From Methanoregulaceae archaeon (GTDB taxonomy: Archaea > Halobacteriota > Methanomicrobia > Methanomicrobiales > Methanospirillaceae), in contig JACTVG010000002.1 of the NCBI GenBank assembly GCA_015660965.1, positions 1 to 64,000 on the forward strand: 64,000 nucleotides of DNA. Direction: 5' to 3'. How positions within the stretch are numbered: position 1 is the stretch's first letter; each line of letters starts with the position of its first letter. A model generated the notes under the pieces. The model was not told the origin of the DNA and did not search any database. It was given only the letters and a program-made list of their open reading frames with translations. Shown here piece after piece: positions 42,158-42,324 of the stretch. Both the position numbers and the translations under genes were made by a program.

Positions 42158-42324
42158 TGGGGTCGGTGAGATTTGAACTCACGATCGACGGGTCTCTCCG
42201 ACATGCATCAGTGCTCCAACGGGTCATCACCAATTTCATCAGACGACCCATTGCTCTTCATTTGCAGCACAGGAACGCAAAGACCGCTGGAGCCCGTTGC
42301 CATTCCGGACTAGGCCACGACCCC
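42158..42324 (-). tRNA. tRNA-Trp (CCA anticodon) with intron
   Basis: Minus strand. Acceptor GGGGTCG pairs with CGACCCC, discriminator A at 42158, CCA not encoded. D arm GCC/GGC, anticodon stem ACGGG/CCCGT, T arm GTGAG-TTCAAAT-CTCAC. Exon 1 is 42287-42324 (ends CTCCAG, positions 32-37), exon 2 is 42158-42193, and a 93-nt intron lies between positions 37 and 38. The splice sites form a canonical bulge-helix-bulge: bulges AG|C and AG|A around a central helix CUCC/GGAG. Mature length is 74 nt. The intron contains a C/D-box RNA (separate entry). Confidence 0.95.
42194..42286 (-). ncRNA. C/D-box guide sRNA inside the tRNA-Trp intron
   Basis: Within the intron, in transcript order: a C-like box AATGAAG (about 42256-42262), D' box CTGA (42239-42242), C' box TGATGA (42224-42229) and D box CTGA (42208-42211). 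The 11 bases before D, CCGTTGGAGCA, pair with GCUCCAGCGG of the pre-tRNA; the fifth base upstream of D faces C34. The bases before D', AATGGGTCGT, pair with GACCCGU at the 3' splice site; the fifth base faces residue 39. This matches the known euryarchaeal tRNA-Trp intron that guides 2'-O-methylation of 34 and 39. Residue 39 here is C, not U. Confidence 0.85.

Follow-up and report, generated by a model that had tools for sequence, protein, structure and literature searches.

Does the intron of an archaeal tRNA-Trp gene still direct 2'-O-methylation of the tRNA in which it resides, as the box C/D guide RNA written into it would suggest? The gene lies in a stretch of 64,000 nucleotides from a Methanoregulaceae archaeon (contig JACTVG010000002.1 of assembly GCA_015660965.1), hereafter the window, in which cmscan reports a tRNA with a long intron at positions 42158–42324 of the minus strand (48.0 bits); ARAGORN with default settings missed this gene in the window. 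Read from 42324 to 42158, the tRNA-Trp(CCA) gene comprises a 38-nt exon 1 (42287–42324, minus strand; RF00005 match, with C34 at 42290, G31 at 42293 and A26 at 42298), a 93-nt intron at position 37/38 (42194–42286, minus strand) and a 36-nt exon 2 delimited by cmscan and sequence (42158–42193, minus strand; A38 at 42193, C39 at 42192). The anticodon stem, ACGGG/CCCGT, yields the pair G31–C39. The splice sites, which the original prediction had described as a perfect bulge-helix-bulge (BHB), are canonical in their core when the sequence is read directly, as two 3-nt bulges flank a 4-bp central helix of CUCC on the exon side (42289–42292, minus strand) and GGAG on the intron side (42196–42199, minus strand). 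Folding the intron ends freely also produced a paired structure resembling a BHB. However, the outer helix is weak, consisting of G-C, G.U and U.G only, so that 'perfect' is too strong a word. A splicing endonuclease gene is present in the window's genome (PF01974 matched twice, in one 336-aa frame); thus both the 3-4-3 architecture and the enzyme expected for an archaeal BHB-spliced tRNA intron are in place.

The guide RNA itself was located by cmscan as a match to the sR3 family (RF01133) at 42206–42265 of the minus strand, scoring 48.7 bits (gathering score 41; E 9.4e-11) and covering model positions 1–55 in full; in a whole-genome search with other settings, the same site reached 35.9 bits, under the cut-off. 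All elements lie on the minus strand and follow the order C box (AUGAAGA, 42255–42261), 12-nt D' guide (GCAAUGGGUCGU, 42243–42254), D' box (CUGA, 42239–42242), 9 nt, C' box (UGAUGA, 42224–42229), 12-nt D guide (CCCGUUGGAGCA, 42212–42223) and D box (CUGA, 42208–42211). Measured against the consensus (RUGAUGA/CUGA), the D, D' and C' boxes are exact, and the C box has one mismatch, an A in place of U at position 5 where all congeners have AUGAUGA, which bears out the earlier remark that it is weak. The fifth base (N5) is G in both guides, facing C39 in the D' guide (42247) and C34 in the D guide (42216); the latter pairs with residues 31–37 and intron bases 1–3. When every register was scored against the mature tRNA, the best one placed N5 at residue 39 for the first guide and at residue 34 for the second. 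When the intron was dinucleotide-shuffled 20,000 times, 14 shuffles attained the pairing score observed for residue 39, 22 did so for residue 34 and none for both. By its gathering score, its place at 37/38 of a tRNA-Trp(CCA) intron and its N+5 targets, the intron is a genuine sR3-family member, and the prediction of a two-guide C/D RNA built for C34 and C39 of its host tRNA is upheld at the level of sequence. It departs from the Rfam family, with which it shares both guides, in the C box, in the changed end of the D' guide and in a spacer that is 5 nt longer.

The guide had been thought unusual in facing C39 instead of U39. The guide in the Haloferax volcanii pre-tRNA-Trp (Cm34, Um39) is built alike, with an intron at 37/38, a BHB and two guides spanning the splice junctions (D to C34, D' to residue 39), but its target is U39. 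RF01133 matched 55 of 61 genomes in our search of relatives and 229 of 393 across the phylum. Since this model contains the guides, we added a search with the tRNA exons, which yielded 138 distinct parsed tRNA-Trp genes (in 127 the intron measures at least 50 nt) and a covariation sample of 125 guides. In this sample, N5 of the D' guide and residue 39 form GC in 98 cases, AT in 23 and GT in 4, and the 98 non-halobacterial guides compared all face C39. The tRNA-Trp genes with U39 all share the anticodon stem CTGA/TCAG, and on the basis of this stem and of the published H. volcanii target we take their families to be Halobacteria. Judging from this sampling, G31–C39 with a matching guide G is the common state, and Halobacteria are the lineage that differs. 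The proposed coevolution of guide and target is borne out by base covariation across the phylum. A C39-specific guide newly arisen with the G31–C39 pair in the window's genome, for which only the presence of G at N5, C39 and G31 in this gene would speak, has next to no probability given the same combination in 98 of 98 non-halobacterial guides and the published record: a 2018 review tabulates 'Cm34 and Um39 (or Cm39)' for the tRNA-Trp intron guide (PMC6313347), and C34 and C39 were predicted as targets in Pyrococcus furiosus (PMC7668247). The survey and the literature thus rule out C39 as a novelty of this lineage. The Pyrococcus intron guide, likewise predicted to address C39 through its D' guide (PMC7668247, PMC6313347), differs from the present one in that its C/D machinery is known; methylation of C39 was not detected in P. 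furiosus (PMC7668247). One gene (L086; genome G174, family f25) bridges the C39 and U39 types, having C39, A41 and an A as intron base 1, and both of its guides match these changes.

Both guides also pair with intron bases, which suggests that they read the unspliced precursor. N9 of the D guide and intron base 1 form GC in 97, TA in 27 and GT in one of the 125 cases, and N10 pairs with the second intron base in all 125. In the window gene, the pairing energy of the D guide amounts to -20.4 kcal/mol on exon 1 joined to the intron, as compared to -11.5 kcal/mol on the mature tRNA. For the D' guide we also considered a reading of the spliced junction, as one congener's guide showed marginally stronger pairing with the mature tRNA, yet across the phylum it is the last intron base that N3 follows (paired in 122 of 125 guides, as against 94 for G37), and precursor reading is preferred for this guide as well.

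A C/D RNA of this kind requires Nop5 and an intact fibrillarin, and neither was found in the window's genome, in contrast to the H. volcanii control genome, in which both genes were recovered. The window's genome is a draft of 99.88% completeness and 3.6% contamination. A profile search with PF01798 found no Nop5 in it, and the Nop5 and fibrillarin proteins of a congener, used as query, matched only Cbf5 and a scrap of fibrillarin. PF01798 is present in 58 of the 61 genomes of the relatives search, all seven congeners included, the exceptions being the window's genome, G016 (96% complete) and G035 (64% complete). Fibrillarin (PF01269) persists as a fragment (profile positions 159–224 of 227) within a 92-aa frame that contains the last 69 fibrillarin codons and is open, with no stop. 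In congeners, the gene order is Cbf5(-), HemD(-), TctA(+), nop5(+), fib(+), DUF1614(+), tRNA-Gln(-) and a thymidylate-synthase-like gene(-). The corresponding locus of the window's genome (L190; G000:C5:72000-88000) reads Cbf5, HemD, the 92-aa fibrillarin frame, DUF1614, tRNA-Gln and the thymidylate-synthase-like gene; that is, TctA, nop5 and the 5' part of fib are deleted from a locus that is otherwise collinear with congeners over ~14 kb. DNA alignment with one congener (G004) sizes the deletion at ~2.5 kb and places its junctions just upstream of TctA and inside fib. The remnant is 60–69% identical to four congeners, which are 60–80% identical among themselves over that part; because its frame is open and its identity so near to theirs, the loss looks recent. 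We also considered contamination, with the window contig and the nop5 locus stemming from different organisms, and rejected it, as both are congener-like and agree in GC content (0.41 in the window, 0.43 in the C5 region and 0.43 in a third contig), which supports their belonging to one genome. With Nop5 absent and just the last third of fibrillarin retained, the function of the guide in this genome is, on these sequence grounds, doubtful.

The guide has changed as well. Four congener species share one form of its 45-nt core (C box, D' guide, D' box, C' box, D guide and D box), from which two more differ at two sites. The core in the window departs from this form at three, namely the U5-to-A change in the C box and N1 and N2 of the D' guide, whose final two bases are GU where most congeners have UG. 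A G at N2 occurs in one other of the 125 guides (L143, from genome G328, which is 64% complete and in which fibrillarin was not found). Pairing of the D' guide falls to 7 bp, down from 8–9; the D guide has been preserved intact, as have the D, D' and C' boxes. Thus the conservation of the C box and D' guide, to which the original prediction had pointed as a check, is high among relatives but broken in the very genome at issue. We presume that the change in the C box would turn the U.U pair of the kink-turn into A-U, which L7Ae binding may survive.

These changes also weigh on the possibility that nop5 and fibrillarin were missed or mis-assembled and that the guide is fully functional, with C34 and C39 methylated as in relatives. 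An sR3 score over the gathering threshold, the integrity of both guides, of three of the four boxes and of the 12-nt spacing, and the occurrence of the same U-to-A change in the C' boxes (UGAAGA) of three other genomes would all fit it, as would an assembly error, for which 3.6% contamination and 170 contigs leave room: the two genes may sit on unassembled DNA, and a mis-join or a strain variant is possible in draft assemblies. Assembly quality is the main uncertainty, both key genomes being drafts (170 contigs here and ~130 in G016). Nevertheless, we regard a functional guide as unlikely, since Nop5 escaped two different queries, the scar, clean and N-free, lies mid-contig within an otherwise collinear locus, both C box and D' guide are altered, and the guide is erased in G016, which has suffered the same gene loss.

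We consider it probable instead that the element is an sR3 guide recently orphaned by the nop5-fib deletion and no longer directing Cm34 or Cm39. In the ancestral state, the C/D and C'/D' boxes would have carried a complex of L7Ae, Nop5 and fibrillarin. Base-pairing of the D guide to residues 31–37 and the first intron bases would have brought C34 to N+5, and that of the D' guide to residues 38–43 and the final intron bases would have done the same for C39, both targets being read on the precursor ahead of BHB cleavage by the splicing endonuclease. Since the deletion took nop5 and the first ~131 fibrillarin codons, the RNP could presumably no longer form or methylate. The intron would persist because it is still spliced and not yet lost, while the C box and D' guide are beginning to decay. 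In this account, it is the loss of methylation and the order of events that we infer.

A later stage of the same process may be seen in G016 (AlinenSediments_bin-4035, Methanomicrobiales), a member of the same family. There, Cbf5, HemD and TctA are followed directly by tRNA-Gln, and nop5, fib and DUF1614 are gone. This loss appears to be independent of that in the window's genome, since G016 groups with G013 and G014 in a five-protein tree and the breakpoints differ. Its tRNA-Trp exons are those of the window's genome and its 96-nt intron retains the BHB, but both guides and the D box have disappeared, and no sR3 match was obtained in this intron even at E up to 5. Decay everywhere between the splice elements suggests that the intron interior becomes dispensable once nop5-fib is gone. 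It speaks against a role for the intron other than methylation, be it as an L7Ae-bound or circular RNA or as an antisense chaperone holding the precursor open. Such a role, which would account for the still perfect D guide and D box and for the strong pairing of the D guide to the precursor, and for which the abundant circularisation of Thermococcus Trp introns offers a parallel (PMC9014305), strikes us as very improbable, the more so as the youth of the deletion explains the conservation that remains.

Orphaning can be set against the wider sample. Of the 49 genomes of the relatives search that are at least 90% complete, 46 possess Nop5 together with an sR3 match, and in the two that lack Nop5 the guide is damaged or erased; in the last one, G014, Nop5 is present, no sR3 match was found and the tRNA-Trp gene was not found either. 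G035, without Nop5 but with an intact guide, was treated as missing data given its 64% completeness, and the 30-nt intron of G378, which contains an assembly gap (NN), was excluded from the guide losses. In family f10, protein searches of three genomes (92–98% complete) found Cbf5 without Nop5 or fibrillarin, and all eight tRNA-Trp genes read are intronless. In family f12 (L117, L118), introns of 23 and 31 nt carry no guides and nop5 and fib are kept; an intron guide can thus vanish while the machinery stays, and its disappearance is in itself no proof that the machinery has gone. In G328 (L237; G328:C120:1989-2864, family f34), Nop5 is intact, no fibrillarin gene is adjacent and the D box of the tRNA-Trp intron is CUAA; at 64% completeness, this genome is only a possible fourth case.

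On balance, these comparisons favour the view of at least three outright losses of box C/D methylation among the relatives (window's genome, G016 and f10), which the tRNA-Trp intron would track in stages. The stages that we propose lead from an intact guide with its machinery to a slightly damaged guide after recent loss, a spliced intron without guide and, finally, no intron. If so, the whole C/D system would be dispensable in some archaea, guide function would largely be what keeps the tRNA-Trp intron, and the intron could serve to tell archaea that still practise C/D methylation from those that do not. Both fibrillarin and Nop5 generally count as near-universal among archaea, and 2'-O-methylation of rRNA has been called essential in eukaryotes and archaea (PMC7089733). 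One survey detected fibrillarin in 140 archaeal species out of 148, leaving losses and annotation errors undistinguished in the rest (PMC7608942); with a scar that can be located, another deletion whose breakpoints differ and corresponding decay of a guide encoded in cis, genuine loss becomes testable. That the system should vanish completely at low temperature is plausible, since the mesophile M. maripaludis has only 7 C/D sRNAs (PMC4644070). The sR3-type intron guide and its Cm39 variant were already known; the new result, which lies outside the window, is its probable orphaning by a nop5-fib deletion, and our literature search found no description of such a deletion with guide decay.

Two further features emerged from the comparison. 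Between the D' and C' boxes, the introns L056, L057, L059 and L060 (G001, G002, G004 and G005) carry 62–65 nt with two hairpins and L058 (G003) carries 120 nt with about four; the insert is absent from G006 and from the window's genome, where the two boxes lie 11 and 9 nt apart, respectively. The inserts contain a recurring motif of the type GAGAAACTCATCAGAGTTTC and do not represent a dispersed repeat, as the only hit elsewhere in 41 genomes was weak and partial (25 bases in G051, E 8e-4).

The second feature concerns the tRNA body. Position 26 is G in 128 of the 138 tRNA-Trp genes, and the combination of A26 with C44 is confined to the window's genome, G016, most of family f10 and G328 (besides the window, loci L119, L135-L138, L140, L141 and L143), lineages that all lack Nop5 and/or detectable fibrillarin; one further gene with A26 has G44. 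AT-biased mutation may account for A26, the GC content being 0.41–0.43 in the window's genome as compared to 0.51–0.56 in congeners.
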